From positions 1-63,934 of the IMG/VR virus record IMGVR_UViG_3300019360_000003: 63,934 nt of DNA. One strand, 5' to 3'. Each line of letters begins with the position of its first letter. The first letter of the stretch is position 1. Of the stretch, positions 36,401 through 60,350 are shown piece by piece. The notes beneath the pieces were generated by a model. It was not told where the DNA came from and made no database searches. It saw nothing but the letters and a program-made list of their open reading frames with translations. Made by a program: the position numbers and the translations under genes. Source of the stretch: a virus.

Positions 36401-38539
36401 CGCTTACTGAAGGCCGAGCGCGAGGAGCGGCTCGCGCTTCTGAAGGAGCAATACGACCAGGGCCTGATCGCCACGCGGCGCTTTTACGACGAGAAGGTCA
36501 AGATAGCGGCCGACAACATAGACGCCGAGATCTCCCTGCTGCGGATCGAACAACAGTTGCTCGAAGACGCGCGCGGCTCGGCCAAGGGCGCTGAGAAGAT
36601 CCGGATCGAGCAGCGGATCGGCGAGGTGATCGCGGAGCAGGAGCTAAAGGTTATCGAGCTTACGAAGGCGTTCCGCGAGAATTTCGCGGAGTTCAAGAAA
36701 ATCACGGCGCTGCCCGCCTTCGATCCCTCGCAGACCATCGAAGAAGTTGCGCCAATAGAATCGCCGCTGATCCTTGGCGCGCGCGCGCGCCTCAAGGATC
36801 TCAAGGCCGCCTCCGAGGAATTCGACCGCCTGCAGGCGAATCTGGAGCGCGACCGGACGATTATTGACCAGCGCGTCGCCGCCGGCGCGCTCGACGAGGT
36901 CGAGGGACGCAAGGCGCTCGCCGCCGTGGAGCGCAAGTACCGCGACCAGCTCGTCTCTACGCTTGAGGCTCGGCGCGAGATTGCTATCATCGAAAAGGGC
37001 GCTTCATCGGCCGCGGTCGCTCAAATAGAGGCCGAGATCGAAGCCTTGAAATCCCTCGGCCAGGAGATCACCAATACACAGCGCTTCCTTCGAGGCCTCG
37101 GCCCTGGAAGCGATACTGGGCGGCTCTTCGAGGATCTGGGATCAGGACTGCGCGACGCGATCCGGGCTGGCTTCACCGATGGCTTCGCCGGCGCGAGGCG
37201 TTCATTCGGCGATCTACTAAAGAACTTGGCGGCCGACTTCCTCACCTCTCAGTTGATTCAATTGTTGCGCAACATTTTTAACCCTCAGGCAGCCGGCCAG
37301 ACAGGCGGCGCGGCTGGTGGCGCCGTGCAGACCGGCGGCGGCGGACTCAGCGCCGCGATCGGACGCGTTACGAGCGCGCTAGAGGGCGGTGGAGGAGGCG
37401 GCGGCAATTTCACGACTCCCCCGATCGCGGGCGGATCCATCCCAGGCGCTAGCGGGGCGCGAATACCCGGCCTGGGAGGAGGTTTCAATCTCGGCGGAAT
37501 CCTCTCGAAGATCCCCGGCTTGAGCGGAATCTTCGATTCATTCGAGAAGACGGCAGCGCAGGGGCGGCTCAACAGCCTGCCTCTGTTGGACGCGGCGGGG
37601 AACGCGATCCCTGGTAGCGCCGCAGCCGCAGCGCCGGGACTGCTCGGCTCTCTTGGCGGCTTCGGGTTGCTCGCCGGAGGCGGCTTCCTCGGCTCTCTGC
37701 TCGGTGGGAGCTCGCCAACGAGAAGGTTGCTTGGTGGCCTGGGCGGGACGCTTGGAGCCGGCGCCCTGGGCGCGACCGGCATCTTTGGCGGGGGCATCGC
37801 GGCAGCGCTCCCCGCTCTGTTCAGCAACCCCATCACGGCGATTGTCGCAGGCGGCATCTTGGGAGGCCTCGCGCTATTTAAGGTGTTTGGCGGCGGCGAG
37901 TTCAAGAAATTTGCGAAGGCTACACAGGACGCCTACCAAGTGAAGGTAAAAGACGATCCGCCAGGCAGGGAACTGTACAAGGCGGTCAAGCAAATCGGCG
38001 AGGGCGCGTTCGGCTCATTCGGCAAAAATATCTCGCGCACGATCCAGCTTGATGAGGCGCGCGATCTGATCGGTCAATATGCAGAGGCGACCAATCAAGA
38101 GAATTCGGCGCTCGTGAAACGCCTCCGCCAGATTCGCGAGATCGGCGAAATCGGGAATCCGGCGAATCAATTTGTCCGGCGGGCTTTCGGGGGTGGATTC
38201 CTCGCTGGGCAGACGGTGATAGCCGGGGAGCGTGGGGCCGAGGTAATCCAAGCCGGCTCGTCAGGTCACGTCTTCCCCTCTATCACCGATTATTTGGATC
38301 GCGCCTTCGCCCAACTCGAACGGAGGCGGGCGATTTCTCCTGGCGCCGGAGGCCAGCAGATGGCCGCGATACTGGGCGCGCTGATCGGACAACTGGAGCG
38401 ACTTGGCGCGGTGCCGCCGGGTTATGTGTTCATGCAGGGAGCGGAGGAATCGCGCGGGCAGGTCGGGCGACTCGTGCGCGAGGGCTTCGCGGCGAGCCCC
38501 GGCGAGCAGCGAGAGTTTTCGCAGCAACTAGGGCTATAG
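33437..38539 (+). CDS. Tape measure protein
   Basis: A 1700-aa protein. Long Ala/Gln/Lys/Glu helical stretches occupy residues 1-480, with a hydrophobic cluster near 490-525 (VAFMAAAFTALAVAIAAATPILIGI). More coiled coil follows to about 1260. A Gly-rich region with a second hydrophobic cluster lies at about 1320-1480, and the conserved-looking end contains GEHGAE-like ERGAEVI. By the rule of about 0.15 nm per residue the tail would be near 250 nm. No lysozyme or peptidase motif was seen. Confidence 0.9.
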   Translation: MPTVDLATLAFEIDASRADAGARKVNSALDSIEKKADAVTQRINEFNGRLGASVQTSALEKSARGVESANRQAAASLKDVERGVASVSRAQQKAADDALRHAQAFARLLQAQGKSADAIKALERALGQYQGSQIQVLRVQTQLTNLQNDYANSPLISAVRAQSEAMGSLGRASGQASANFAQTAKAGTALGDSLSSSTAATIAQAQALAQLQVLQGDNAAAARTLADALQTVSAQQEQALASKSSFGSRLLEGLRAATAVVNAVTAGLQFYTTLRGEAGQTTTEAEAAAKAVSRSFEFARAGAKAVKNAADEATASLSRMAAIAKGAFGAPAEGRAVAAPAAGPVTAQNLLERIRAANKAVLESSRKEEGEKDAQQAAKLAQQAKSTARFFEQLDKAKRAALRFGREETGSASLIDFLEGLSSVADRAAARVSTAASSISQRIRASFAGDLGDRVRAVFDSFGGGAEGAAGKLESLNNRAQFATGVFTLVAGKVAFMAAAFTALAVAIAAATPILIGIGAVGVRANAQFEQVKLGIASITASVAELRTGEGVKLEGINELNAALPIAQKQLDALRVDALQTALTFEQIAPAFLQAVGPGLAAGLNLDQIRKTVIDLSQLIIPLTGNAAQLGQELRAIFSGDINQDTQVAKALGITKEQIEAAKEQGKLADFLNEKLKVAAATGALMARTFEAATSNLREAGTVLAGRVTEGFFSALRDKLNATLPTIFETAGGTVEISARFKGIADTFTEVFDRLGQRAVQAIDFALRQIESLSRFLESARIPVLRLLDATDLLIDRITILGKTLVSELGFDGKGAIIDIAQELEDLSLIIAFLQDVGELFGVSFLGTIKEIAFVIEDRLNEALKFLGIQIQALDKDVQRLEGDLIQLEDRFQQGFKNVRETQNRIEIARGLNAIDAKQRAQVVLFLGQEFDLPGGGTDVITGGRGTKIVPPKPTREAGGGKSRAESEARAIREAQLALEKSAVEQTVRLLKAEREERLALLKEQYDQGLIATRRFYDEKVKIAADNIDAEISLLRIEQQLLEDARGSAKGAEKIRIEQRIGEVIAEQELKVIELTKAFRENFAEFKKITALPAFDPSQTIEEVAPIESPLILGARARLKDLKAASEEFDRLQANLERDRTIIDQRVAAGALDEVEGRKALAAVERKYRDQLVSTLEARREIAIIEKGASSAAVAQIEAEIEALKSLGQEITNTQRFLRGLGPGSDTGRLFEDLGSGLRDAIRAGFTDGFAGARRSFGDLLKNLAADFLTSQLIQLLRNIFNPQAAGQTGGAAGGAVQTGGGGLSAAIGRVTSALEGGGGGGGNFTTPPIAGGSIPGASGARIPGLGGGFNLGGILSKIPGLSGIFDSFEKTAAQGRLNSLPLLDAAGNAIPGSAAAAAPGLLGSLGGFGLLAGGGFLGSLLGGSSPTRRLLGGLGGTLGAGALGATGIFGGGIAAALPALFSNPITAIVAGGILGGLALFKVFGGGEFKKFAKATQDAYQVKVKDDPPGRELYKAVKQIGEGAFGSFGKNISRTIQLDEARDLIGQYAEATNQENSALVKRLRQIREIGEIGNPANQFVRRAFGGGFLAGQTVIAGERGAEVIQAGSSGHVFPSITDYLDRAFAQLERRRAISPGAGGQQMAAILGALIGQLERLGAVPPGYVFMQGAEESRGQVGRLVREGFAASPGEQREFSQQLGL

Positions 38540-38731: not shown

Positions 38732-39187
38732 ATGGCGGATCTCGAAAAACTGATCACGACTGGCGTCGCTTCTTACGGGCTAAAGGTCCGTAAGCGCTGG
38801 CCCGTGCAGTTTTTCAGGAATCGCGCAGGCTATGGTTACCCGGTCGTGTATGACGACATCCGCGGGGCGAAAGAATGGGCGATTGTCTTCAACACGCTCG
38901 TTGATGATGTCTCGCAGTGTCCCGTCACGCTGGCCGACGGGACGATCCAAAGCACGTTTGAGTATCTGCGCGACTTTATTGATAGGCACTTCGAGCCGGA
39001 GGTAAAACCCTTCATCGTCAGGTGTCCGGCCGATGGGAAGGACTACACGGCGATGTTTACGGACCCGGACTTCGAGCTGAGTTATAACAACTTCCGTCTC
39101 TGGTCGAGCGGAATCGTTATCGCGCAATGGCGAAGCGGCGATCTGCAGCTTGATGGAATGCAGGTTGATAACCCGCTGGAGATTTGA
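38732..39187 (+). CDS. Minor tail protein candidate
   Basis: A 151-aa protein between the tape measure and hub genes. Gene order equates it with distal-tail components. The sequence has mixed strands and CPVTL/VRCPADG cysteines, possibly a metal site. No family recognised. Confidence 0.5.
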   Translation: MADLEKLITTGVASYGLKVRKRWPVQFFRNRAGYGYPVVYDDIRGAKEWAIVFNTLVDDVSQCPVTLADGTIQSTFEYLRDFIDRHFEPEVKPFIVRCPADGKDYTAMFTDPDFELSYNNFRLWSSGIVIAQWRSGDLQLDGMQVDNPLEI

Positions 39188-41313
39188 TGCGAAAAATTGT
39201 TACGAGCGTCAATCCGAACAAACTCGAAGAGCTCAAGCGCCTCCAGCGCGAGGGCCGCTCAATCTCTTACGCCGAGGTCCTTGCCGTCCACTGGCCGCAA
39301 CCCACGGGAACGCGCTATTACGCCATCAGCCGCTTCGATCTGGCGCCGAACTTCCAGAATCTCCCCTGGAAGCCGGTCCAATATCGGATCTACAGCCGAC
39401 AAGGGGAAGGCGTTGAGGCGATTCCGTACGTTACAACTCATGACGCGAATGACGATAAGATCTCCTGGGAGTTCATTGATCATGATCTGGAGATCACCAA
39501 GCTCTACGTACTCCATCAGTCATCGGCAAAAGTAGAACTTCTCTGCTATGTCGCTGAGATAGACCAGCAATTCAATTTGTGGTGGGGACTGCTCGATCCG
39601 CATGGCGGCCGACGGGCAACCCTGATCAAGGCGTCGGCGACCTTTGGGTTCCGCTCTCCCCGCGGCAAGATTCCACGTAAGCTTTTGAGCGCGACCACAT
39701 GCCAGGCCACCTTTGCGGATCTGGGCACGGGATGCACATACAATCTTGGCGCTGGCGGCTCAATCGGCAATATCAACTCGGCGACAGGCTTGCCCTATAG
39801 CGAATGCCCGAGGAATAGCCGGGCAGTTTGTTTGCAGCGAATTGGCGGCGATGAAAAGCGGCTGCCATACCAGGCCTTCAGCGCGGTTCTCGGGTCGGAG
39901 ACGGTCGAGCAGTCGAAAGGCCCGAACACTCTCGCGACGACCAAGGGCAATGACTCGGCGCTCAACATCGTCCTGCAACTGATCTTTGGGAAGCGCAAGG
40001 TTAGGGCGCTTCCGACTCGCCTTTATCAGATCCAGACCAATACGAATAAGCCGGAGAAGGGAACCGTCAGCGCAATCTTTCCGGTTTCTGATTGCCATGT
40101 GCGATCCATCACGAATCCGAGAATCAACAATGTCCTGGTTACATCCTCCAACGACAGCAGGAATCAATTTTTCCGAAACCTCGGGGAGATCGGACAGGCT
40201 CCGTTGCCGCTCACCTCAAAGCAACAGGCGGACAACGCCTCGGGCGTGGCTGAATTCCGCGGATTGATCTTCGGAGCATTCGGAGGTAAGAGCGCGGGCG
40301 ATTTTACGGGAAGCTGCGATGTCGAGGGCTGCGACGAGGTGCGCTTGTGGACCGGCCCACAGAAAGGCCAGAACGGCTATTCGACGAACCGCGCCGAGTG
40401 TCTCCGATTCCTGCTCGAAAACAAACGAAGCGGAAATGGCGACGGCGCAAGCACACTCGTTGATGAGGATTGGACGGAGCTGGCGGAACGCTGCAATGAT
40501 CAGGTCGGCTATTCGGACGCGCAGGGGGCGCACTTCACCGGGCCGCGTTCCACGTTCAACGCCCAGGTCGAGGGGCGACAGGCGAGCCAGGTCATCCGCG
40601 ACGTATGCATGGCCGGCTTCTTCACCGCGCCATTTCCGTTCGAGGGCAAGAAGCGGATATTCCTGATCAAGGACGAGCCGCTTGACAGCTCGATCCCTCA
40701 ATTCACCAACGCAGGCCCAGACGCTAATGTTGATTGGGAGTCGGTCGAGCTTATTCCGACTCAGGGTTACGACATCGTCAATGCGGTCACTGTCTGGTAT
40801 GAGGCTGCCGAGTTCGATTATGTTCGCCGCCCCCTGACTTTTAATTACACCGAACTCCAACAACTGCGCGGCCAGGCGTTGGGTGACGCAAGCGAAGAGA
40901 GGTCGCCGGCGGAGCACAGCCTGTTCGGAGTCGTCGAATTCGGCGAGGCTGTTAGGGTCGGCAATCTGATCGGCGATCTCGGGTCGTTCGCGGCGGGCGG
41001 GACGAAAAATCCCTTGCGCGTCCGCTTCCGCTCGGCGCGCTCATTTCTGGAGCCGGAATTCCTGACTCTTCACCCCTACAAAATTATTGATCTGAATTTC
41101 CCCGAACTCGCGCCATATCGCGAGCCGATGGGGGAGCCTGCGCGCTATTTCCGCGTTCTCACGATCCAGCGTTTGCAAAATTTGCAAATGGAGGTTCTGT
41201 GCCAATGGTGGCCATACGGCTATGTGAGCCGGATCGAGGACGCCACTCAATCCCCACCGATGGCGGGATCGGGCGGGACGGGCGCGCCATTGGAGGAAGT
41301 GATCACGACTTGA
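39187..41313 (+). CDS. Tail hub/tip protein
   Basis: A 708-aa protein, ATG 39187 overlapping the previous stop. It contains several Cys-bearing stretches (ATTCQATFADLGTGCTYNLG, DVEGCDEVRLW, AERCNDQVG), the first being the known C...F.D.GC pattern of phage tail proteins (DUF2163-like). The latter half has hub-like beta domains ending in QMEVLCQWWPYG. It is probably the baseplate hub at the tail tip. Confidence 0.65.
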   Translation: MRKIVTSVNPNKLEELKRLQREGRSISYAEVLAVHWPQPTGTRYYAISRFDLAPNFQNLPWKPVQYRIYSRQGEGVEAIPYVTTHDANDDKISWEFIDHDLEITKLYVLHQSSAKVELLCYVAEIDQQFNLWWGLLDPHGGRRATLIKASATFGFRSPRGKIPRKLLSATTCQATFADLGTGCTYNLGAGGSIGNINSATGLPYSECPRNSRAVCLQRIGGDEKRLPYQAFSAVLGSETVEQSKGPNTLATTKGNDSALNIVLQLIFGKRKVRALPTRLYQIQTNTNKPEKGTVSAIFPVSDCHVRSITNPRINNVLVTSSNDSRNQFFRNLGEIGQAPLPLTSKQQADNASGVAEFRGLIFGAFGGKSAGDFTGSCDVEGCDEVRLWTGPQKGQNGYSTNRAECLRFLLENKRSGNGDGASTLVDEDWTELAERCNDQVGYSDAQGAHFTGPRSTFNAQVEGRQASQVIRDVCMAGFFTAPFPFEGKKRIFLIKDEPLDSSIPQFTNAGPDANVDWESVELIPTQGYDIVNAVTVWYEAAEFDYVRRPLTFNYTELQQLRGQALGDASEERSPAEHSLFGVVEFGEAVRVGNLIGDLGSFAAGGTKNPLRVRFRSARSFLEPEFLTLHPYKIIDLNFPELAPYREPMGEPARYFRVLTIQRLQNLQMEVLCQWWPYGYVSRIEDATQSPPMAGSGGTGAPLEEVITT

Positions 41314-41320
41314 GGTATTT

Positions 41321-43618
41321 ATGAAGCGATTTTTCTTGCCGATTCTTATCCTTGCGCTTTTCGTCGCCGGCGCGCGCGCGCAAACGGCGACATCGTTCAG
41401 CGCGACCGTGAGCACTGTTGGTTCGACCGCGATTGGCCTGCAGGGGACGGTGGACAGCGGGACGCTGACCTTCGGGACGCATCTATCCGGATGCGCGAGC
41501 TGCGTCCAACCCACGCACGGGAAGCTCTCGAATTTTAACGCCAACTCCGGGATCCTGGTCTACACGCCGGAGAGCGGATATACAGGGAGCGATTCATTCG
41601 GGTTCACAGCGATCAAGGACGGCTCCACGTCGTCGAGCGAGGCGACCGTCACGATCACGGTCACGAGCTCGAAGACGACTATCACCGACAAGCTCCTTAA
41701 TCCTGATGGCTCGGCGCGAGCGGGGAAGATCACATTTATCCTTACGCAGCCGGCCAATTCACCGGAAGGCCTGATCCCAGCCTCCGCCACGGTGACGAGC
41801 GATCTGACCGCCGGCCAGTTCACCGTCAGCCTCTACCCGAGCCGCTCCCTCTCACCGCAGGCCTATTACCAGATGTGGGCTGGCGACTCGGGGAATCTCA
41901 GAAGGGAACTGCTCGGGATCTTCGATATTCCGGCCGCGACGGCGACCATCACCTCCATCCAGCCCTATCGGATCACCGACACCAATCGCCAGACCCGCTA
42001 CAACTTCGTCGAGTACGCCGCGTTCCAGGCCTTCGCGACGAAGGCGAATTCATTCGGGGTGTTGAATAACGGGACGCTCATTGGGACGCGGCCTTCGATC
42101 AATTTCATTCCGGGCGGCAACATCTCGCTGAATATCGCGGACAACTCCGGCGCGGGCCGCGTCGACGTGACGATCTCCGACCCGACCGGCGGGAGCGGCG
42201 GGACCGTCGGCTCCGCCACGTCGGGGCAGTTGCCCGTGTATAACGGCGCGACCTCGATCACCGGGCTCGCCTTCGCCGGCGCGAACAAGATCCTCAAGAC
42301 GAATACATCGAATAACGGGATCGAATGGGCCACGGTCACCGCGGGGACGGGAATCAGCGTCACGCCGGCGGCCGGCTCGATCACGATCGCGAACACCGGG
42401 ATCAGCTCGATCAACGGGAGCTCCGGCGGCGCTCACACAATCAATGCCGGGACCAGTGGCTGCGGCTCCCAGCCCACCGTGACGACGCTAGGGGCCACGA
42501 CGACGATCTGCGTCCCAATGGCCACCGCCACCGTCGGCGGATACGTCACGGCCGGCCAAGGGACCCAGACGATCGCCGGCCAGAAAGTTTTCACCGGCTT
42601 CAACACGACCGATCTGCCGGTGACGGTGAAGCAATTCCCGAGCGGCTCCTCGACCGTCCAGGAGTGGCAGGATTCCGGCGGGACCGCCTTCGCGCGCATG
42701 ACGATTCCCGCGTCGACGCATCCGGGTCTCTGGGTGAAAAGAATGGCCCTCGGCGGGAACCTCAGCGCGCCTGCGATTGGCTATGGCCTGACCTTCGCCG
42801 AGACCAACAGTACGGACAACTTCGCCGGAATCGGTTCGTTCCCGATCGTGCAAGTGAATAACGCCGCGAGCGGCGCGCAGGGCGTCCGGTCGCAGCCGCG
42901 CTTCGAGGGGACCGGGACGCATACGGCGACCGATAGCGCCGCCTATTTCGGGATCTTCACCTATAACGGCTCTGGGACCCTGCCGCGCGCGTCCGGCGCG
43001 AAGGTCCGCGTCGATAATTCCAATACCGGGACCACGACCTGGGGGAACGGTTATTACTCCACGTGGTCACAGGACAACGGCGCGACCACCAATTTCGCCC
43101 ACTTTCTCGCCGCGGCCGGGACGCTCAACGGCGGAACGCGAGGGACTGAATACGGCCTCTACGTCGAGTCGCTCGCCGTCGCGACCACGAACTGGGGCGT
43201 CTATACGGCGGGCACTATGGGTTCAAGCCTCGGTGGCTTCCTGGACCTGCGCGGGAGGACCGCGCCCGCGGTCTCAAACGCCTCGGAACTGCGGATCTAT
43301 ATGGACTCGTCGGTGAACGCGCCCAAAGCGAGTTTCAACGGCGCGGCCTACGGATTCTTCCCAACCTATCTGACCGCGACCGCGACGCTGGACTTTCCTT
43401 CGACCTCGGCTCAGCAATCGACTGAGCTCACAATCACCGTGACCGGGGCCGCGGTCGGTAAGCCGGTCTGGCTCGGAACACCGGCGTCGCTCAATAACCA
43501 CACAGGTTTTATGGGCTATGTAAGCGCCACGAATACCGTGACGGTGCGATTCTTAAACTTCAGTAGCGGCGCGGTGGATCCGGCGAGCGGGTCTTACACC
43601 GTCGCCGTTCTGCAGTAG
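41321..43618 (+). CDS. Fibre-like protein with a Sec signal peptide
   Basis: A 765-aa protein. Residues 1-21 (KR, hydrophobic core ILILALFVAGA, then RAQ) form a convincing signal peptide. The mature part begins with an Ig/cadherin-like domain (YTPESGYTGSDSFGFTAIKDG) and continues as repetitive Gly/Thr/Ser beta structure with SGQLPVYNGATSITGLAF, as in phage tail fibres. Gene order after the hub supports a receptor-binding fibre, yet virion proteins normally lack export signals. See findings. Confidence 0.7.
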   Translation: MKRFFLPILILALFVAGARAQTATSFSATVSTVGSTAIGLQGTVDSGTLTFGTHLSGCASCVQPTHGKLSNFNANSGILVYTPESGYTGSDSFGFTAIKDGSTSSSEATVTITVTSSKTTITDKLLNPDGSARAGKITFILTQPANSPEGLIPASATVTSDLTAGQFTVSLYPSRSLSPQAYYQMWAGDSGNLRRELLGIFDIPAATATITSIQPYRITDTNRQTRYNFVEYAAFQAFATKANSFGVLNNGTLIGTRPSINFIPGGNISLNIADNSGAGRVDVTISDPTGGSGGTVGSATSGQLPVYNGATSITGLAFAGANKILKTNTSNNGIEWATVTAGTGISVTPAAGSITIANTGISSINGSSGGAHTINAGTSGCGSQPTVTTLGATTTICVPMATATVGGYVTAGQGTQTIAGQKVFTGFNTTDLPVTVKQFPSGSSTVQEWQDSGGTAFARMTIPASTHPGLWVKRMALGGNLSAPAIGYGLTFAETNSTDNFAGIGSFPIVQVNNAASGAQGVRSQPRFEGTGTHTATDSAAYFGIFTYNGSGTLPRASGAKVRVDNSNTGTTTWGNGYYSTWSQDNGATTNFAHFLAAAGTLNGGTRGTEYGLYVESLAVATTNWGVYTAGTMGSSLGGFLDLRGRTAPAVSNASELRIYMDSSVNAPKASFNGAAYGFFPTYLTATATLDFPSTSAQQSTELTITVTGAAVGKPVWLGTPASLNNHTGFMGYVSATNTVTVRFLNFSSGAVDPASGSYTVAVLQ

Positions 43619-43623
43619 GAGGA

Positions 43624-43935
43624 ATGAAGAATATGGCTTTGCCTGTTTCGCCGGTCCTGCCCGGCGCCGATCTCCCGGAGACTGTGATGGGAGCGAATCA
43701 ACCCGAATATGAGCCGCTGCCGGCGTTCCGCCATCCCGACGGGACGATCCTGACGAGATGGCGATTGACTTGGCGCGAGCGCCTATTCGCGCTCTGGCGG
43801 GGCGATGTGTATTTGTGGGTGTTGACTTTTAACCACCCCTTGCAGCCCGTCATGGTCGAGATCGACCGCCCGGCGCTCAGGCGGACCCAAGAGGGCGAGA
43901 CAGTTTTAGAAGCCGGTAGTCTTTCCAAGGCATGA
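43624..43935 (+). CDS. Small conserved phage protein in the fibre block
   Basis: A 103-aa protein with ribosome site TAGGAGGA. The RWRLTWRERLFALWRGDVYLWVLTFNHPLQPV stretch is a family pattern seen in many phages near tail genes, role unknown. Confidence 0.6.
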   Translation: MKNMALPVSPVLPGADLPETVMGANQPEYEPLPAFRHPDGTILTRWRLTWRERLFALWRGDVYLWVLTFNHPLQPVMVEIDRPALRRTQEGETVLEAGSLSKA

Positions 43936-46520
43936 TGCGATTTCTTTCCATCCTCATCCTGATTCTGGCCTGCGGCTCGGCCTATGCCCAACGGCCCGGC
44001 CAGACCCAGGACGCGCCCATAGACAGCAAGCGCATCGGCTTCGCGCCCGTCGTCGCCCCCTTCGCAAATCTCGCCGCGCAGGACGCCTCTACCTGGTCGA
44101 CGCTGCCCGGGCAGGCCATAGTCACGACCGGGATCAAGGCGCCCGACGCCACGACCGGCGCGGCCTCGCTCTCAACTAACTCCCCAATCACCGCCGGTAG
44201 ATTTGTATACAGCGCTTCCCGGACACTGCGCGTTGGCGACCGCCTGATCGCCGCCGTCTGGGTCAAGGCTGTCTCACAGCAAAGCGGGCTATCGGCGCAG
44301 CCCGCCGTCACGCTCGACGAGCAGGCCGTGGCGAGTATCACGGCTGATGACGCCACGCAGGGCTATCATTTCGACACCGACGCGCTCAATTACCGGTACC
44401 TGGTCACGACCTCCAAAGCCGACACCGAGTGGGAATGGGTCACCACGGCCGCCACCGTGATCGACGCGCCCTCGACGCCCTCGGCGACGGTGAAGTTCGA
44501 GCTTCAGTGCACGAACAACCGAACGCTCGCCTTCTACGCGCCACTGCTCTATCACGTCCTAGCCGGCGAGATGACCGATGATGAGGCTGCGGCGCTGCTG
44601 CGCAATCTCTACACCGTTCCGGACGGCGTGCCAGCCGGGGCCGCGGCGCTATTGAGAGGTCAAACCCTCTATTGCTACAGCGGCGGAAGCTACGCGCCCT
44701 GTTCGTTCGGCGGAGGCGGCGGGCTTACCGGCTCCGGTGTGAATGGCCGCTTGGCGTTGTGGAACGGGACTTCGAGCCTGACCAGCAACGCTAACCTGCT
44801 CTACGGCGCGAGTAGTATCACGGTCAAGGGGAGCGATCTGACCGCTTCGACGATCTCCCCTGGAGACGCGCTCCTGACATTTGGTACGACGACCAACCTG
44901 CAGGGCATCGCGCTCGACCTGGGTGGAACCTCGCCATTCATCGAAATCTCAACTCGCAGCGATACAGCGCCGCCTATCCTGGAGCTTCAACGCGCGCGCG
45001 CCAGCAATAATCTCCTACAGTCGGGGGACGTTATCGGCGAAATCGATTTCGTCGCCGATTCCTCGATCTCCCAATCCCGGCCGGGAGTCATCCGCGGAGT
45101 CACCAGCCAGATCCAAAGCTCCACGAATGGTGGCGGAAGGCTTGAATTTTTGACGACCCCGCTCAACAGCCTCACGCCGGCGATCAGGCTTACGCTCGAC
45201 TCGCAAGGCAACGCGGTGATCGGGACAGCCGCTCTTGCGACGAACGCCACTGACGGGTTTTTATATTTAGACTCGATGGTCGGAGTTCCGACCGGAACTC
45301 CGACGATACATACAGGCCGCGTTCCTGTGACCGTGGACACCAGCAACTCGCGGCTCTACTCATATATCGGCGGAGCGTGGGTGAACCTGAGTGGCGCGGG
45401 AGGCGGATCTCCTGGCGCCCCGGATAACTCTCTGCAATATCGGGTTGACGCCACGACCTTCGGCGGGTTGTCAGGATTGACGACCGACGGGACGAATGTC
45501 ACCGCCGGAACAGGGATTTTGCGCGCGAGCCGCCCGCGGATCACGACTGGGGTCGATGATATTAGCGGAAATAGATGGTTGAGCGTCAGCGCGACGCCAT
45601 CCGCGGTCAACTCGTACACTATCGCGAATGCGGCGGCGAGCGGACATCCCAAATTGACCACGGAAGGCTCCGACGCGAATATCAACATCGACCTACAGCC
45701 GAAGGGCGCCGCGAACGTGCGCGGCATATTCGGCGTTGGCCAAGGTTTCATCGCGCAGGCCAATGGCTCGTCCGATTCCCCACTCAATGGTTTTGCGAAC
45801 TCATCCGGCACTGTGGTGGGTGGAATCGGACTCGCCCTCGGGGCATCAAATTACAGCAGTCTAGCCGCGACAAATGACATCGTGATTCGCTCGGGCAGCG
45901 CTTCAGGCGCGGCTGGACATCTGATTCTGACTGCGATGTCGGGAAAGGACATCAAGTTCGGCACGGGCACGAATGACGCGAGCGGTCAGAACGACACGCT
46001 CAAGGCGACGATCACGAGCGCTGGCCGGTTTGAAGCAGTGACGGGCAATGGCTCGACCTCGATGATGAACCTGAATGGAACGCTGGCCGTTCAATTCAAT
46101 ACCGTCGGCTGTTCTGGTTCGAGTGAAACCGATCTCCACTCCAAGACCATCCCGGCTAACACGCTCGCTCTTGATGGCGATCAGATCACCGCCGATTTCG
46201 GCGGGCGCTTCGCCAACAACGCCAACTCGAAGACCATCAAGGTCTACTTCGGCGGAACGGTGATCTATACAGCGGTCGCCGCCTTTCAAAACATTGACTG
46301 GCATTTGCGCGTCACGATTATTCGAGACGCTTCAGGCAGCGTCAGAACCGTCACCAGCGGTAACTGGCAGAGCAGCGTGGTCAATACTTTTGTTCAACTC
46401 GGCTCTGTCGGCAGTCTGACCTTCAGCTCCGGCATTGTTCTAAAAGTCACTGGGCAAGGAACATCGAATAACGACATCGAGCAGACATTGAGCGTTATCC
46501 GCAAGGGTGGCAATCAATGA
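43932..46520 (+). CDS. Second fibre-like protein with a Sec signal peptide
   Basis: An 862-aa protein. ATG-ATG start, signal peptide to about residue 20 (SILILILACGSAYAQ). A beta-domain of about 180 residues follows, then typical fibre repeats (GSGVNGRLALWNGTSSLTSNANLLY, NSLQYRVDATTFGGLSGLTTDG, DTLKATITSAGRFEAV). The C-terminal 150 residues form a globular beta domain. Overlaps the upstream gene by four bases. Confidence 0.7.
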   Translation: MMRFLSILILILACGSAYAQRPGQTQDAPIDSKRIGFAPVVAPFANLAAQDASTWSTLPGQAIVTTGIKAPDATTGAASLSTNSPITAGRFVYSASRTLRVGDRLIAAVWVKAVSQQSGLSAQPAVTLDEQAVASITADDATQGYHFDTDALNYRYLVTTSKADTEWEWVTTAATVIDAPSTPSATVKFELQCTNNRTLAFYAPLLYHVLAGEMTDDEAAALLRNLYTVPDGVPAGAAALLRGQTLYCYSGGSYAPCSFGGGGGLTGSGVNGRLALWNGTSSLTSNANLLYGASSITVKGSDLTASTISPGDALLTFGTTTNLQGIALDLGGTSPFIEISTRSDTAPPILELQRARASNNLLQSGDVIGEIDFVADSSISQSRPGVIRGVTSQIQSSTNGGGRLEFLTTPLNSLTPAIRLTLDSQGNAVIGTAALATNATDGFLYLDSMVGVPTGTPTIHTGRVPVTVDTSNSRLYSYIGGAWVNLSGAGGGSPGAPDNSLQYRVDATTFGGLSGLTTDGTNVTAGTGILRASRPRITTGVDDISGNRWLSVSATPSAVNSYTIANAAASGHPKLTTEGSDANINIDLQPKGAANVRGIFGVGQGFIAQANGSSDSPLNGFANSSGTVVGGIGLALGASNYSSLAATNDIVIRSGSASGAAGHLILTAMSGKDIKFGTGTNDASGQNDTLKATITSAGRFEAVTGNGSTSMMNLNGTLAVQFNTVGCSGSSETDLHSKTIPANTLALDGDQITADFGGRFANNANSKTIKVYFGGTVIYTAVAAFQNIDWHLRVTIIRDASGSVRTVTSGNWQSSVVNTFVQLGSVGSLTFSSGIVLKVTGQGTSNNDIEQTLSVIRKGGNQ

Positions 46521-46532
46521 AGCAAGGGAATT

Positions 46533-46925
46533 ATGCAAAATCTATTTATCGTTTTTTCACTCATCATCGTCTGCGCTTGCGGGGCCTACGCGCAGGAAGC
46601 GAGCGCCGCTAACGGCGCCGCGGACAAAGCCGCTAAGGGCGCCGTGTCGGCAAAGGCCGCTCCGCTCAAGCCCCTCACCCTCACGCAAGAGCAGCTCACC
46701 CGGCTTGTGGACGCGCAGCGGACGCTCCAGCTCGCGCAGGCTCAGGTCGAGAAAGCCCAGATCCAAATTGATAGTTTGATCAAGGGGTTTCGGCTGGAGT
46801 TCGTTGATCTGGGTTTTGATCTCAAGCGATACGAGCCTGATCTCCGCGTGATCGATCAACAGAGAGGGCAGTTCGGTTTTCTGCCGAAACCTGAGCCGGC
46901 GAAAGAGGCAAAGCCGGACAAGTAA
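46533..46925 (+). CDS. Secreted coiled-coil protein
   Basis: A 130-aa protein. Signal peptide residues 1-21 (VFSLIIVCACGAYAQ; the Cys could suggest a lipoprotein but the AYAQ site fits better). An Ala/Lys-rich segment and a helix (LTRLVDAQRTLQLAQAQVEKAQIQ) follow, ending in a Pro/Lys tail. Perhaps a partner of the fibres. Function unknown. Confidence 0.6.
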   Translation: MQNLFIVFSLIIVCACGAYAQEASAANGAADKAAKGAVSAKAAPLKPLTLTQEQLTRLVDAQRTLQLAQAQVEKAQIQIDSLIKGFRLEFVDLGFDLKRYEPDLRVIDQQRGQFGFLPKPEPAKEAKPDK

Positions 46926-47050
46926 TATCGAGAATGGCCGCCGGGAGCTGGGATGCGCCCGCTGGCCAGGAACACTCCGGCCATAGAAGCTGACAACCTT
47001 TGGGGAGGTAGAGAGCCGACAGGTCGGAGCGTTCAAGAGGGAAGGGAAGT

Positions 47051-49666
47051 ATGAAGAGAGCGTTTTTCGCCATCACTGTCGCGATCTTGCTGGCCTCCGC
47101 CGCCCTCGCGCAGCTCCCGGTCTGCAACGTCGCGGCGCAGATCTATGACGTCAACGGGCAGCCGCGGGCGAACTTCCGCATTACAGTAGTCAGGATCATC
47201 AAGAACGGCCAGCTCCTGAGCCGGACGCCGATCACGTACACGACCAACGCGTCGGGCCAGGTTACGATCTCGCTGCCGCAGACCTCGACAGCGTACATTT
47301 ATTGCAACGCCTATGCGCTCGACGCTAACGGAACCGCCGGCGTTCCGCTCTCGATCCCGGCGCAGTCGTCGGCTCAGCTCGAAGCGCTCGCGAACCTGGC
47401 GACAGTGCTCACGACACTCGGCGACACGCTCTACAGCGGCATGAATGGCGTTCCCACGCGGCTCGCCGGCAACACGACCACGACGCCAAACTTCCTCGGA
47501 CAGACGGGGACGGGGAGCGCGTCGGCCGCGCCGGCCTGGTGGTCGCTTGTGGCCGGCGCGAACGTCGGCCTCTCCTACAACATAGTCAATAAGACGGTGA
47601 CGATCAGTTCGACGGGAGGAGGGGGCGGCGGGGGATCACTCACTACCCGCGAGGTGGACGGCTCGCCCTCGATCACGACGACGACGCTGGAGTTCAACCA
47701 GGCGAACGGCCTGATGCTGACGGATCAGGGCGGGGGCGTGGCGCGGCTCGGACTTTCCGGCGTGCCGTATTCGGCGCTGAGCTTGACGAGTGCGATCCTC
47801 GGAGGCGACCTGGCGAACGACGCCGTCACCTTCGCCAAAATACAGAACCTCACGACCGACCGCCTGATCGGCCGCGACACGGCGAGCAGTGGAGATCCGG
47901 AGGAGATCGCGCTCGCGGGCTCGCTGGTCTTCACGGGCTCTCAGTCGATTCAATTGAGTGGCGATAGCGCTAGTCCTGGCAATAGCAAGTATTACGGGAC
48001 GAATGGGAGCGGGACCAAGGGCTTCTATGATTTGCCGACCGGCGGCTCGCCGCATAATTTGCTGAGCGGGACCCATTCCGACACGACAACGGGATCGGTC
48101 GCGCGCGGCGATCTGATTACGGGTCAGGGCGGGTCGGCCACATGGCAGAGGCTGGCGATCGGCGCGGCGAATCGCGCGCTGATCAGCGACGGGACGGATG
48201 CGGCCTGGAGCACGGTCACCAATGCGGCGCTCGCGAATTCCTCGCTGACCATCACCGCCGGCGCAGGCCTTATCAATGGCGGCTCCGTCGCGCTGGGCGG
48301 CTCGACGACGCTCGACATCGGCGCGGGGACGGGGATCCTGGCGAACGCGAACGATGTGGCCGTAGATCAGAGCTTCGCGCCGACCTGGACAGGCGTGCAT
48401 GCGTATAACCCGGGCACGACGCCGGCGAACGCTATTGTGCTGGACATCGCCGCGATCGGATCGGCGGGTACGCGTGATTCGCATAATCTGCTCTGGCGCG
48501 GACGGAGTGATGACGGGTCGGCGCACGCGGTTGAGTGGCGGGCGTTCGCGGATATGACATCAAACGCTGGGGCCTCGACTTTCACGGTTCAGAGCAAAGT
48601 AGACGCCGCTTCATTCGCAAATCGGCTCACCATCAGCGACGCCGGCGCGGTCGTGGCGACTTCATTCAGTGGCGATGGGAGCGCTCTTACGGCGCTCAAC
48701 GCGTCGAATTTGAGTTCGGGCACGGTTTCTAACTCACTGCTCGACAGCGATCTCGCAGCGCTCGGCAACAACTCGACCAATGGTATTTGGGCGAGAACCG
48801 GTAGTGGCACGGGCAGCGCGCGAACGATCACGGCCGGAAGCTCGTCAATTACAGTCACGAACGGCGATGGAGTATCTGGCAATCCAACGATTGACGCGGT
48901 GCAGAACATCCAGACCACCGCGACACCGCAGTTTGCTCGCCTGGGCCTGAACGGCGCGGCAGGCAGTGTCACTTCGCTCAAGATTACCGGGCCGACCATC
49001 AACACCGATGCGGATGCGACGATCGCCGTGATGGATTCAAGTTGGAGTCTTACGAAAAACGATTCCAACACGAGGCAGTTCTATGGGTGGAAATTCAAGC
49101 CAACCCTCAACACTGGCGTCTCGAATGCCAATACGACGGTCAACCTCTTGGACGTTGATACGACGAACACGGCGGTCACGGGCGTCACTACCAACCTCTT
49201 GAAGCTCTCCTATGGTGGCACGCAAGCGCTTGTAGTCACGTCAGCGGGCAACACGACGGTTGCGGGCACGTTCACCGCGACCGGCGCGCAGACGCTGACG
49301 GGCAACACGACGCATAGCGGGAATGTGACCTTTAACAAGGCCACTTATTCGACCGCGGTCGGCCTGACGGATGCCTCGACCATCGCCACGGATGCAAGCC
49401 TGGGCAATCGATACCGAGTTACATTGGCCGGCAATCGCACCCTCGGCAATCCGAGCAATCCGACAGACGGCCAGCAAATTGTCTGGGAGATTGTTCAGGA
49501 TGGGACGGGGAGTCGGACGATTTCGCTTGATACGAAATTCGCCCTGGGCACGGATATTACAGCGGTCACCTTGTCTACAACAGCGAACAAGCGAGACTTC
49601 CTGACCGCAATCTACAACTCGACCGCCGACAAGTGGTTCGTGGTCGGCTTTATCAAGGGGTATTAA
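47051..49666 (+). CDS. Third large fibre-like protein with a Sec signal peptide
   Basis: An 871-aa protein with ribosome site GAGGGAAGGGAA. Signal peptide 1-21 (TVAILLASAALAQ). Residues 22-110 are a beta module (VCNVAAQIYDVNGQPRANF). Classic phage fibre repeats follow (LGGDLANDAVTFAKIQNLTT, LIGRDTASSGDPEEIAL, GTGILANANDVAVDQ). The end (WEIVQDGTGSRTISLDTKF) is a known fibre C-terminal pattern. Confidence 0.7.
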   Translation: MKRAFFAITVAILLASAALAQLPVCNVAAQIYDVNGQPRANFRITVVRIIKNGQLLSRTPITYTTNASGQVTISLPQTSTAYIYCNAYALDANGTAGVPLSIPAQSSAQLEALANLATVLTTLGDTLYSGMNGVPTRLAGNTTTTPNFLGQTGTGSASAAPAWWSLVAGANVGLSYNIVNKTVTISSTGGGGGGGSLTTREVDGSPSITTTTLEFNQANGLMLTDQGGGVARLGLSGVPYSALSLTSAILGGDLANDAVTFAKIQNLTTDRLIGRDTASSGDPEEIALAGSLVFTGSQSIQLSGDSASPGNSKYYGTNGSGTKGFYDLPTGGSPHNLLSGTHSDTTTGSVARGDLITGQGGSATWQRLAIGAANRALISDGTDAAWSTVTNAALANSSLTITAGAGLINGGSVALGGSTTLDIGAGTGILANANDVAVDQSFAPTWTGVHAYNPGTTPANAIVLDIAAIGSAGTRDSHNLLWRGRSDDGSAHAVEWRAFADMTSNAGASTFTVQSKVDAASFANRLTISDAGAVVATSFSGDGSALTALNASNLSSGTVSNSLLDSDLAALGNNSTNGIWARTGSGTGSARTITAGSSSITVTNGDGVSGNPTIDAVQNIQTTATPQFARLGLNGAAGSVTSLKITGPTINTDADATIAVMDSSWSLTKNDSNTRQFYGWKFKPTLNTGVSNANTTVNLLDVDTTNTAVTGVTTNLLKLSYGGTQALVVTSAGNTTVAGTFTATGAQTLTGNTTHSGNVTFNKATYSTAVGLTDASTIATDASLGNRYRVTLAGNRTLGNPSNPTDGQQIVWEIVQDGTGSRTISLDTKFALGTDITAVTLSTTANKRDFLTAIYNSTADKWFVVGFIKGY

Positions 49667-49669
49667 GGG

Positions 49670-50167
49670 ATGCCATCGAAACAATACTTCGCGCCTGAAA
49701 CCGGGCGCACGTTTAATAACGCAGGCGATACCACCTTCACGCCGAAAAATATCGCTGATGGCGCTGGCCGGATCAGCGCGCAGTGGGATCGAGGCTCAGG
49801 CTCAAAGCCTGGTCTCTATCGCTGGTACGCTAAAACCAAAGCTGCTGCGGCGCTCACCGCTGGCAGGCAGCTCGAAATCTACCTCGCGCAGAGTTACGGG
49901 TCCGCGTCGGGGGAGGTGACTGGTAACCAGGGCACGACTGACGCCGCGTTTTCGAGCGCGGATAAGCGCAGGAATTTGGGCGCGCCGATTGGCGTAGTGA
50001 ATGCGGATTCAACGAGCAACGGCGAAATCCAGGTCGCGACTGGCGTCTGTTTTATTTATTCGCGGTACGTGTCGGTCGTCTGGTGGAACGCCTTCGGCCA
50101 ATCGCTGACCAATACCGACGCGGATCATAATTTCATCCTTGAGGCGATTCCGCCGGAGCAGCAATGA
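49670..50167 (+). CDS. Tail appendage-type protein
   Basis: A 165-aa protein immediately after the fibre gene. Beta-rich with AGRISAQWDRGSG and FILEAIPPEQQ, similar in style to small phage proteins that accompany fibres. No signal peptide, unlike its neighbours. Confidence 0.5.
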   Translation: MPSKQYFAPETGRTFNNAGDTTFTPKNIADGAGRISAQWDRGSGSKPGLYRWYAKTKAAAALTAGRQLEIYLAQSYGSASGEVTGNQGTTDAAFSSADKRRNLGAPIGVVNADSTSNGEIQVATGVCFIYSRYVSVVWWNAFGQSLTNTDADHNFILEAIPPEQQ

Positions 50168-50985
50168 GCTTTCACGACCGACAAATCATCAGGCCGGTAT
50201 GGCCATTCGCGCTGAACCACCTATCACCGCAGGCGCAGGGGTTGGTGGCGTGGTGGCCGATGGCTTTGCCGGGCGGGAACACGCTGTTCGATCTCAGTGG
50301 ACGCGGATTTAACGGAGCGCTGGTAAACGGGCCAACTTGGGGAGCGGATGCTGATGGGAATTCAGTGTTGCGGTTTGACGGATCGGATGACTATGTTTCT
50401 TGTGGGCAGGTAAGCATCACCGGGCATATCACGTTGTCCGTATGGGTCAGCTTGGACGCTCTGACCTTTCACCGTCCCTTTATCGCCAAGCGCGATGACT
50501 CCTTGTCAAATAAGGTCAATTACGCATTCGACAAGGATAACAACAACGGCGAAATCCGGTTTTACTGGCATGATGGTAGCCAGTATATAGTTTATGTCTC
50601 CACAAATGCAGCACTTGCAATAAATCGGTGGTACCACATTGTGGCCACCTATGAGACAGGCGTCACACCCAACTTGTATCTGAATGGGGTTGCGCTGAAC
50701 CGCACGGTGCAATTAGGTACAGGGCTACCCGCATTGGTTGCTAACGCGGCAGATACTCGGCTGGGCAGTTTTGTGGGTGCCAGCGGGGACGATCAGGCGC
50801 TTAGCGGGTTCATGCGCGACGTGCGCATCTACAACCGCGCGCTGTCCGATGCTGAGGTGTACGCCCTTTTCGACCCCACCACGCGCTATGACTTGTATTG
50901 GGAGCTTGGGCGGCGAGTGACGTTTCTACCTATGGCGGGTGACCCGCGTAAAGGCGATTTCTTCAGTCCGATGACGGGATTTTGA
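50164..50985 (+). CDS. LamG/concanavalin-like carbohydrate-binding protein
   Basis: A 273-aa protein. Residues 25-235 carry the laminin-G-like pattern: GLVAWWPM, FDLSGRGFNGALVNGPTW, VLRFDGSDDYVSCG, WYHIVATYETG, LYLNGVAL and GFMRDVRIYNRALSDAEVYALF. It probably binds cell-surface glycans at the tail tip. Overlaps the previous gene. Confidence 0.8.
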   Translation: MSFHDRQIIRPVWPFALNHLSPQAQGLVAWWPMALPGGNTLFDLSGRGFNGALVNGPTWGADADGNSVLRFDGSDDYVSCGQVSITGHITLSVWVSLDALTFHRPFIAKRDDSLSNKVNYAFDKDNNNGEIRFYWHDGSQYIVYVSTNAALAINRWYHIVATYETGVTPNLYLNGVALNRTVQLGTGLPALVANAADTRLGSFVGASGDDQALSGFMRDVRIYNRALSDAEVYALFDPTTRYDLYWELGRRVTFLPMAGDPRKGDFFSPMTGF

Positions 50986-51020: not shown

Positions 51021-52049
51021 TCACATTCTGATTCTGAACAGCAGTTTCAGCGACTCTCTTATCGGAAGATAAGCGATTTTGTGGAAAGCGCCTTTCGGCG
51101 CGAACCGAACGACAAGAATACAATACAGCCATTTCAGAGATTCTTTCCAACGCGGGCTTGCGCGAAAGGCGTTTTTCAGAATTTGAACACCAACTTCCAA
51201 ATATCCAGCGTCAATCAATCGCACCGCGCAATGCCCGTCATAACCGTCGAGTGTTTGCTGGATGGCGCGAACAAGCGATTGATCGGAAGCTGATTCGCGC
51301 CATTTGCGCCGCAGTTTCCAAATCTGCGCCTCCATGAGCGGGGAATTCTGGCTCGCGCTTTCAGTGTGCAAACGAATCACGGATAGCGTTCCTTCCATGT
51401 CTAAATACTTAAACTTTGCGCCATGCAAGGCGCAACGGAACCAGTAGTCCCAGTCTTCGACTGGGGAGACAGTCCAATCGAACAGTCCCACCCGATCAAC
51501 CATCCCCCGCCTCAGCAATGGAGCGCTGACTACCATGATATTCGTTTTTACCAGCGCTTCGAGAATGGGCTTCCCCGAGCCTGAGACTTCAAGCATCCAG
51601 GGCGCGTCAGTCTGCGATAATGAGCGCGTTTCAGCGTCTATTACTAAAAATGAATACCTCTGCTCCTCTGGGTACTCTGTTCTGAAATATCGGACGCTCC
51701 CATAAACAATATCCACGTCCGGATGATCGTCCAGATACTGAGCGTGACATAGAAGCTTTCGCGGCTCGATCAGGTCGTCCGCGTCGAGGAACTGGATGTA
51801 TGCGCCCTTGGTCAGCGTTAGCCCCTTGTTTCTGGCCTGCGCAACCCCGCTGTTTGCTTGATAGATATAGAGAATCCTGCCGTCTCTTTTGGAAAAGCTT
51901 GCCACGACCTCCGCCGTGTTATCCGTGGAACCGTCATCAATGACTATGCATTCCCAATCCTGATATTGCTGCTGTAAGATGGATTCTAAGGTCGCGGGAA
52001 GGAACGCGCCATAATTGAATGCGGGAATAATAATACTAACAGCGGCCAT
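51021..52049 (-). CDS. Glycosyltransferase family 2
   Basis: A 342-aa GT-A fold enzyme: SIIIPAFNYG at 5-14, VIDDGSTDNT near 35-44, QFLDADDLIEP near 86-96 (DxD metal site) and a WDYWFR segment near 200. It transfers a sugar from an NDP-sugar to a surface glycan. Base composition is visibly more AT-rich than flanking phage genes. Nine bases separate it from the Wzt gene, so they form an operon. Probable transferred cargo for lysogenic conversion. Confidence 0.85.
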   Translation of the reverse strand: MAAVSIIIPAFNYGAFLPATLESILQQQYQDWECIVIDDGSTDNTAEVVASFSKRDGRILYIYQANSGVAQARNKGLTLTKGAYIQFLDADDLIEPRKLLCHAQYLDDHPDVDIVYGSVRYFRTEYPEEQRYSFLVIDAETRSLSQTDAPWMLEVSGSGKPILEALVKTNIMVVSAPLLRRGMVDRVGLFDWTVSPVEDWDYWFRCALHGAKFKYLDMEGTLSVIRLHTESASQNSPLMEAQIWKLRRKWRESASDQSLVRAIQQTLDGYDGHCAVRLIDAGYLEVGVQILKNAFRASPRWKESLKWLYCILVVRFAPKGAFHKIAYLPIRESLKLLFRIRM

Positions 52050-52058
52050 ATTAGCCCA

Positions 52059-53312
52059 TCACCCAATCGACCATTTGGATCGAACAAGCATCTTCCCTCG
52101 AAGGGGAAGGATTTCTTTCCCATTGTTATAAAAATCGCTGGAGATCACTGTAAAAGAGGTGAAATTGATCAAATCATCCATTTCCCGCGCTCCTCGGTCT
52201 CCAACCGTAATTGTTAAGCAGTATTCTCCGGGCGCTAAGGATAACTCTTCGATCTCGCATAGGATTTTCGTCTCTCTCTCTATAGCGGGCAACGCTGAGG
52301 CCGATAAATAGGTGGCGACAGTGAAGATCCTTGCTCCTAAACTATCGTTGATTCCCACGCCGATCTCAGGCTGATTTAATAGCGCGGCGGGATTGAGAGT
52401 GATTTCAAGGATGATTTTTTCCCCGGATGCAAAGATAGATTTGGGATGACCATCATTCTCGAGTAATCGAACGAAGGTAATTAGATGTGCGCTTCCTGTT
52501 TGGCGAGCTGGATGGGTAGTAACATCTATACTTCCTTCTTGCAACTCGTGATGCCGCATGTTGTAAAGCTTTAACCCGGCCTCCGTGGCTCCATGATATT
52601 CGATTTTACCATTCGCCAGGAGAATAACCGTGTGGCATAGGTACTGTATTGCGGTCAAATTATGGCTAACGAAAAAGATGGTTCTGCCGTGGCTGCCCAC
52701 CTCTCTCATCTTGCCGATACATTTATTCTGGAATTCCGCATCTCCTACCGCTAAAACCTCATCCACCAATAAAATCTCCGGCTCCAGATGCGCGGCCACA
52801 GCGAAAGCCAGACGCATATACATTCCGCTGGAGTAATGTTTGACTGGCGTATCGATGAACTTATCGATCTCGGCAAAGGCGACAATTTCATCAAGCCTGC
52901 GATCAATCTCATTCCGTTTCATCCCCAGGATCGCGCCGTTCAAATAGATGTTCTCGCGCCCCGACAGCTCCACGTGGAATCCCGTGCCGACTTCGAGCAG
53001 GCTGCCGACGCGACCATAGATGTCTACCTGACCGGTGGTCGGATGCGTGATCCGAGACAGGATTTTGAGCAGTGTGGATTTGCCCGCGCCATTGCGTCCA
53101 ATAACGCCCATGATTTCGCCTGGCTTAATTTCGAAACTGACATCTTTCAATGCCCAGATCGTATTGTCCTGGCGATTTCCATTTCGCCGGAGCCAGCCGA
53201 AAGGGAAGCGTAATGTTTCGGCGATTGAATCGCGGAGCGTCGGAAAGGACGCTTGTCGCGCGCCAATGCGGTATTGTTTGCTCAGGTTTTCAACCTTGAT
53301 GATCGGTTTCAT
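52059..53312 (-). CDS. ABC-2 exporter ATPase, Wzt type (O-antigen/polysaccharide export)
   Basis: A 417-aa protein; ATG 53312 chosen (a TTG two codons upstream is less likely). Walker A GRNGAGKST near 72-80, signature YSSGM near 160, Walker B ILLVDEVLA near 182 and H in FVSHN. Residues 250-417 are the beta-rich carbohydrate-binding domain of Wzt that selects capped O-antigen. No permease (Wzm) partner is in the window, so it would pair with a host permease or compete with the host Wzt. AT-richer, like the adjacent glycosyltransferase. Confidence 0.85.
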   Translation of the reverse strand: MKPIIKVENLSKQYRIGARQASFPTLRDSIAETLRFPFGWLRRNGNRQDNTIWALKDVSFEIKPGEIMGVIGRNGAGKSTLLKILSRITHPTTGQVDIYGRVGSLLEVGTGFHVELSGRENIYLNGAILGMKRNEIDRRLDEIVAFAEIDKFIDTPVKHYSSGMYMRLAFAVAAHLEPEILLVDEVLAVGDAEFQNKCIGKMREVGSHGRTIFFVSHNLTAIQYLCHTVILLANGKIEYHGATEAGLKLYNMRHHELQEGSIDVTTHPARQTGSAHLITFVRLLENDGHPKSIFASGEKIILEITLNPAALLNQPEIGVGINDSLGARIFTVATYLSASALPAIERETKILCEIEELSLAPGEYCLTITVGDRGAREMDDLINFTSFTVISSDFYNNGKEILPLRGKMLVRSKWSIG

Positions 53313-53480
53313 AGACAAGCGGTCTGGCGACTCACGATTCCAAATTAATTGGCTGTTGGATGATCTCCAAAATAAATGAGCGCTCCTTTCGGCGCGCTCG
53401 CTTCGGCGGCGTCCTCAGCCATTAGGGTATTTACCGCCGCCAGTTTGCAGAAGAGAGCCGTCCGGCTTTGCGGTTAGGGC

Positions 53481-60306: not shown

Positions 60307-60350
60307 AAGACCAACTGTAAATCGTTTATTTACAATTGGTCTTATTTTTA
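60307..60350 (+). terminator. Hairpin with T-rich tail at the integrase 3' end
   Basis: AAGACCAA.TGTAAAT pairs with ATTTACA.TTGGTCTT, followed by ATTTTTATT on the plus strand. It overlaps the last codons of the integrase gene. It could stop rightward transcription into the integrase. Confidence 0.55.

Follow-up and report, generated by a model that had tools for sequence, protein, structure and literature searches.

Sec signal peptides on the tail-fibre proteins of an uncultured temperate phage suggest a putative export step before fibre attachment

In the textbook view, the assembly of tailed phages takes place in the cytoplasm; in T4, the fibres are able to join finished particles in extracts. 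In filamentous phages, the receptor-binding virion protein pIII is exported through Sec, cleaved, disulphide-bonded and added from outside the cytoplasm; however, these phages are extruded at the inner membrane without lysis and have no tail, and pIII is not related to the fibres described here.

Other exported phage products are known. Secreted endolysins have been described (PMC6116005), and in lambda the signal-peptide gene lom lies among tail-tip and tail-fibre genes (PMC12309495), as do the genes analysed in this work, even though Lom is an outer-membrane beta-barrel made in lysogens and not a fibre. The Nixviridae phages of P. gingivalis harbor five genes of unknown function whose signal peptides follow the Q-rule and for whose products a role in modifying the outer membrane of the host has been suggested; signal peptides have also been reported for capsid proteins of P. 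gingivalis phages (PMC10367356). The Nixviridae proteins resemble those of our locus in being phage proteins with signals for signal peptidase I (SPase I) that expose a glutamine, but they have not been identified as fibres (PMC10367356). The Q-rule, i.e., a glutamine at position +1, belongs to Bacteroidetes, with variable Q-values outside this group (PMC5837995). In the literature searched, outside which most subscription journals lie and where an earlier description is possible, no account of exported tail fibres of tailed phages was found, nor did any of the papers describe an export step preceding fibre attachment.

The late tail operon

The window, i.e., the whole stretch of DNA under investigation, is the 63,934-base record of an uncultured virus, in which head/packaging and tail genes follow the usual order (terminase, portal, prohead protease, HK97-type capsid protein, tail tube, tape measure; Table 1). 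This order and the presence of two integrase genes indicate that, judging from its gene content, it is a temperate, siphovirus-like phage; the TIGR03437 domain suggests a host belonging to Acidobacteriota. The capsid relatives of this phage (41-57%) have unrelated tails, and no fibres with a signal peptide (SP) were seen near them among the stretches read.

The tape measure gene and a protein in the hub position are followed by a run of genes on one strand (41321, 43624, 43935, 46533, 47051, 49670 and 50164, named here by their start), separated mostly by 3-12 base gaps or joined by start/stop overlaps, with 125 bases ahead of 47051. The glycosyltransferase and Wzt-type genes that come next are likely involved in the modification of surface polysaccharides. 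The initial annotation had placed the exported products after the tail hub gene: their location in the late tail operon holds, but the "hub" label of 39184 is given by position, the domain and phrog profile searches having yielded zero family matches and the protein, used as a query, no relatives in viral contigs, genome contigs or phages.

Table 1. Features of the window (coordinates in the 63,934-base stretch; the caret marks the predicted cleavage point)
Feature	Coordinates	Strand	Evidence and remarks
TIGR03437 Soli_cterm (Solibacter-type) domain	17859-18422	+	E 2e-14
Signal-peptide protein, MRKIPLILLALFLHATAQA^QDK	18839-19390	+	Sub-threshold beta-barrel hint, PF13505, E 0.0096; upstream of packaging genes
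Signal-peptide protein with DUF4394 domain, phage-borne	20366-21301	+	E 1.7e-45
Tail tube protein	31159-32541	+	PF18906 Phage_tube_2, E 1.9e-25
Tape measure protein	33437-38539	+	phrog_10093 tail length tape measure, E 3.8e-8
Probable tail hub/tip protein, no signal peptide	39184-41313	+	Between tape measure and fibres
Exported fibre-like protein 1 (putative), 765 aa	41321-43618	+	Big_9 (PF17963, E 4.2e-8) after signal; phage-fibre C-terminus; mature chain 4 Cys
Predicted signal peptide of fibre 1, MKRFFLPILILALFVAGARA^QTAT	41321-41380	+	SP score 7.92 (rule-based scorer); ribosome-binding stretch/GC3
Small non-exported protein between fibres 1 and 2	43624-43935	+	No SP
Exported fibre-like protein 2 (putative), 861 aa	43935-46520	+	Mature chain 4 Cys
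Predicted signal peptide of fibre 2, MRFLSILILILACGSAYA^QRPG	43935-43988	+	SP score 7.16 (rule-based scorer)
Small helical protein, probable signal peptide MQNLFIVFSLIIVCACGAYA^QEAS	46533-46925	+	Core KD 3.43; low-confidence helical model, pLDDT 62
Exported tail fibre protein 3 (putative), 871 aa	47051-49666	+	SKYYGTNGSGTKGFYDLP motif; phage-fibre C-terminus; mature chain 2 Cys
Predicted signal peptide of fibre 3, MKRAFFAITVAILLASAALA^QLPV	47051-47110	+	SP score 7.67 (rule-based scorer)
Late protein, no signal peptide	49670-50167	+	Scorer; 1 Cys
LamG/ConA-like late protein, no signal peptide	50164-50985	+	PF13385, E 1.3e-25; phrog_8510 virion structural, 3.3e-17
Glycosyltransferase family 2 and Wzt-type polysaccharide ABC ATPase with Wzt_C	51021-53318	-	Directly after fibre cluster
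Two integrase genes	54762-55628 and 60326-61552	-	Same strand, ~5 kb apart

Three of the products had been described as fibre-like, a claim that by sequence is borne out for 47051 and partly for 41321. Residues 767-871 of 47051 share 49% identity with the minor tail protein of Streptomyces phage Kromp (E 2e-19), and its C-terminus 41% with the tail fiber of Caulobacter phage S2B; the C-terminal domain is also present in Synechococcus and Prochlorococcus phage fibres, the SKYYGTNGSGTKGFYDLP motif is common to other phage proteins, and the protein matches phrog_19976 (tail assembly, E 4.7e-5). The C-terminus of 41321 has a 45% match in another phage (E 1e-12) and a weak one (34%, E 2e-3) in the tail fiber of an E. 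coli phage. In the case of 43935, the composition is fibre-like and a single weak match was retrieved, C-terminal and to a Microcystis phage (35%, E 4e-5). Structure prediction gave models with low pLDDT (67 and, for 46533, 62).

No relatives were found for 41321 in viral contigs, nor for the fibre cluster as a whole in the viral contig and phage searches and in the loci of the capsid relatives, so that the window's own case is argued by analogy. Profile searches gave no match between the cluster proteins and outer-membrane beta-barrel families of the Lom type. Relatives of the 43624 protein, with 50-53% identity, occur in two IMG/VR contigs, and Croceibacter phages were also matched; the protein was considered as a marker of exported fibres and rejected, its relatives not adjoining SP fibres. 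A small coiled-coil-like SP protein encoded between two SP-bearing tail-region genes of another contig (L010, 10835-11116, + strand) is similar to 46533 in size and place, and a role as a periplasmic helper is possible.

Signal peptides of the fibre cluster

The initial annotation had reported four consecutive strong signal peptides ending in A-x-A-Q and had called for their prediction, which was carried out with a rule-based scorer looking for a basic n-region, a hydrophobic core of 8-15 residues and an A-x-A-type site. Eight E. coli signal peptides scored 4.8-7.5, and a score of at least 6 was reached by 4.7% of 2332 called phage genes. The products of 41321, 43935 and 47051, in which n-region, core and site are all found, passed (7.92, 7.16 and 7.67), equalling or exceeding most of the eight controls; strong Sec/SPase I signal peptides with a predicted cleavage A-x-A^Q are thus confirmed in these three. 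The fourth, that of 46533, is probable: the rule failed solely for want of a basic n-region residue, and the core is strongly hydrophobic (KD of the best 10-mer 3.43, with 2.6 reached by 3.2% of genes). Given the 4.7% background, chance hydrophobic starts were rejected as an explanation. All four signals are preceded by a purine-rich ribosome-binding stretch and have a codon GC3 matching the rest of the gene, which indicates that they are translated parts of the ORFs and led us to reject misplaced start codons as well. The second exported gene might start at 43935 or, since the protein begins with M-M, at the listed 43932, one codon upstream.

The scorer gave no signal for the neighbours 39187, 43633, 49670 and 50164, in agreement with the annotated lack of signals in 43624, 49670 and 50164. 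The specificity claimed on this basis stands against the named neighbours, but not for the window at large, where two further exported-type products are encoded (18839 and 20366; Table 1), the former being a candidate Lom-like protein. A glutamine at +1 of the SPase I site is found in 4/4 fibre-cluster proteins and also in 18839; the hosts to which the Q-rule applies are Bacteroidetes with glutaminyl cyclase, and the host suggested for the window by TIGR03437 is acidobacterial.

Signal-peptide fibres in other phages

Consecutive SP tail genes following the tape measure/tip genes, mostly with glutamine at +1, are also present in the Cellulophaga phages phi19:1, phi10:1 and phi39:1. Unlike those of the window, these proteins are annotated as detected in virions, i.e., their records carry the note "experimental MS/MS proteomics", and the host belongs to Bacteroidota; the records are silent on signal peptides, and no sequence relation with the window fibres was seen in tblastn searches. 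The marked proteins are gp101, gp102 (pectate lyase), gp103 (tail fiber) and gp104 of phi19:1; gp091, gp092, gp093 (pectate lyase) and gp094 (tail fiber) of phi10:1; and gp25 and gp26 of phi39:1. At the annotated starts, 8/10 pass the SP rule with a score of at least 5, while phi19:1 gp104 and phi39:1 gp25 are SP-like by eye; glutamine directly follows the site in nine of the ten (by eye), phi19:1 gp104 having lysine. No signal peptides were found on the head, tube and tape-measure proteins tested in the three phages. The MS/MS detection could include co-purified envelope material. In phi38:1 and phi46:1, which infect the same host species, no SP fibres were seen, and thus fibre assembly in that host does not need export.

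A second analogue is a family of fibres (QWN-type) retrieved by scanning IMG/VR for the motif (PT..QWN.YF..K) of the L102 fibre, whose N-terminus reads MNRIFAALLFLLASINFAVA^QSNPGLQFGQVPTATQWNSYF. Similarly to the window fibres, they follow baseplate/tail-tip genes and have a signal peptide, mostly glutamine at +1 and even cysteine counts; they differ in the N-terminal domain, and several are located in baseplate operons of the contractile-tail type. The motif is absent from the window fibres; judging from the sequences, the feature is analogous and the family is not the same. A signal peptide was recognized by rule in 58 of the 64 distinct N-termini collected, versus 10 of 156 other (non-fibre) genes of at least 300 aa in the same loci (p 2e-35). 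The genes upstream of the fibre, which often include baseplate J (phrog_6, 3e-56) and collar-type fibres, score in 6/51 cases and those downstream in 16/38. Tandem SP fibres within one phage were observed in L129 (8766-11387 and the following gene) and likewise in L145.

The mean identity among these fibres is 23% in the signal peptide and 66% at the mature start, suggesting that the function of the signal has been kept and not its sequence; the A-x-A-type consensus with glutamine at +1 is maintained as a pattern in 49 of the 58 SP-bearing members. Among the members failing the rule, the N-terminus of the second L129 fibre looks SP-like on visual inspection and that of L124 degenerate, while L151, L153, L183 and L190 are SP-less and start with a methionine at, or within 4 residues of, the predicted cleavage point of the others, L151 and L153 aligning to the mature forms from residue 1. 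Members with and without a signal peptide share a conserved fibre N-terminal domain. The N-terminal query including the signal peptide gave no match in phages; without it, three phage records were retrieved, two of which were read and contain SP-less fibres. No match was found in plasmids.

Proteins folded in the periplasm tend toward even cysteine numbers. Complete mature SP fibres of the QWN-type are even in 34 cases and odd in 5, with none lacking cysteine, and their cysteines are spaced as close pairs; the control genes of the same loci are even in 119 cases, odd in 146 and cysteine-free in 61 (Fisher p 5e-7), and a set of SP-less genes from these loci, mostly collar-type fibres, in 11, 24 and 8 cases, respectively. 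The ratio is 32:5 after clustering at 50% identity, whereas merging loosely linked clusters leaves seven parity units (7:0), so that independence is limited. Even parity points to folding in an oxidising compartment and hence is an independent sign of export. The mature window proteins have 4, 4, 0 and 2 cysteines (41321, 43935, 46533 and 47051) and two SP-less late proteins one each, counts that agree with the pattern but are too few to count.

Proposed route, alternatives and occurrence

In the reading towards which we lean, if only slightly, the host Sec translocon would carry the tail-fibre proteins out late in infection, signal peptidase I would cut after A-x-A, generating an N-terminal glutamine, and the mature fibres would acquire their fold, oligomeric state and disulphides in the periplasm, joining finished particles once the inner membrane opens at lysis; part of the tail assembly would thus occur outside the cytoplasm. 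The window itself contributes canonical predicted signals, fibre identity (47051, and partly 41321) and the position in the late tail operon, whereas the conservation of signal peptides across a family, cysteine pairing, the starts of SP-less members and the annotated MS/MS come from analogues that are not sequence relatives. Export of SP fibres is strongly indicated by these sequence patterns, and their presence in virions is suggested by database annotation; by analogy, export and cleavage in the window phage, periplasmic folding and joining at lysis may follow, while the place of joining (periplasm, lysate or membrane) we infer. The paradox raised by the initial annotation, i.e., export signals on proteins of a virion assembled in the cytoplasm, is real, given that the proteins with intact Sec signals are tail fibres and, in the Cellulophaga phages, annotated MS/MS virion components. 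Of the two solutions it offered, the evidence favours attachment outside the cytoplasm over secreted adhesins or decoys, since both virion presence and the conserved fibre N-terminal domain point to the particle.

The latter solution, which we consider rather unlikely, would have the proteins secreted or displayed at the surface without being bound to the virion and acting as receptor decoys against superinfection or the adsorption of progeny to debris, in the infected or lysogenic cell. The signals and the disulphide signature point to export in this case as well, the phage encodes other exported-type products and envelope-modifying genes, and QWN loci often also have an SP-less collar-type fibre gene; moreover, Lom is an exported outer-membrane protein whose gene, in lambda, sits between those of the tail spike and the tail fibre (PMC12309495), and P. 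gingivalis phages encode Q-rule secreted proteins with no known function (PMC10367356). Decoys, however, would account for export but neither for the SP-bearing tail proteins that MS/MS annotation places in the virions of three Cellulophaga phages nor for an N-terminal domain that is conserved in SP and SP-less fibres and is needless in a free decoy; in addition, the genes lie within the late tail operon.

It appears improbable that the signal is not used for export, being either a hydrophobic N-terminus retained to anchor the fibre to the tail or a remnant of an adhesin gene acquired from a host. Even though the cytoplasm is the normal assembly site of virion proteins, cleavage is so far predicted rather than observed, and a Big_9 domain, of a type frequent among surface proteins, occurs in mature 41321, the site consensus and the glutamine at +1 are retained (49/58) while the sequence of the signal drifts. 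An uncleaved anchor, which the initial annotation had named as the outcome that would speak against export, might explain virion presence, but the sequences disfavour it: it accounts neither for the cysteine pairing, which marks an oxidising compartment, nor for SP-less homologues beginning at or near the cleavage site. We regard as highly improbable that the proteins are lysogenic-conversion adhesins, serving attachment or biofilm formation and simply housed in the tail region; a temperate phage with two integrase genes and further cargo (DUF4394, GT2 and the Wzt-type ABC ATPase) would suit them, but the genes are packed with tail genes, mostly at 3-12 base gaps, a lysogen could express them only from a separate promoter, and phage tail proteins match the fibre C-termini.

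If the route through the periplasm is correct, it changes where host-range proteins fold, makes the phage dependent on host Sec, signal peptidase, Dsb enzymes and perhaps glutaminyl cyclase, and bears on how progeny avoid receptor binding inside the cell. In uncultured phages, receptor-binding proteins could then be recognized by a simple sequence feature, the signal peptide, which, as a warning, is no argument against the virion membership of a protein; a direct test is possible in cultured phages for which virion proteomes are already available.

In some tailed phages, export of the fibres from the cytoplasm probably precedes their attachment. A general extracytoplasmic route in some tailed phages of diderm hosts, with Sec export, periplasmic maturation with disulphides and loading at lysis, is quite possible, to a degree that stops a little short of probable. 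Among fibre proteins with the YYGTNG motif, clear SP carriers were found in the unrelated contigs L009, L029, L034, L036, L088 and L102. Bradyrhizobium phage ppBdUSDA122-1 has signal peptides on the tail fiber (Collar, E 2.9e-10; phrog_1858, E 2.8e-28) and on the adjacent next gene, the sole SP genes of its tail region; siphophage particles are released by Bradyrhizobium strain USDA 122 (PMC10127595). An SP fibre is also present in Acetobacter phage phiAO1. The feature, for which a survey of acidobacterial phages had been suggested, is therefore not confined to such phages, phages of Bacteroidota and Alphaproteobacteria having it too. An SP-like start was also observed in the major capsid protein of Bradyrhizobium phage ppBeUSDA76-1 (L162, 21065-22555, + strand).
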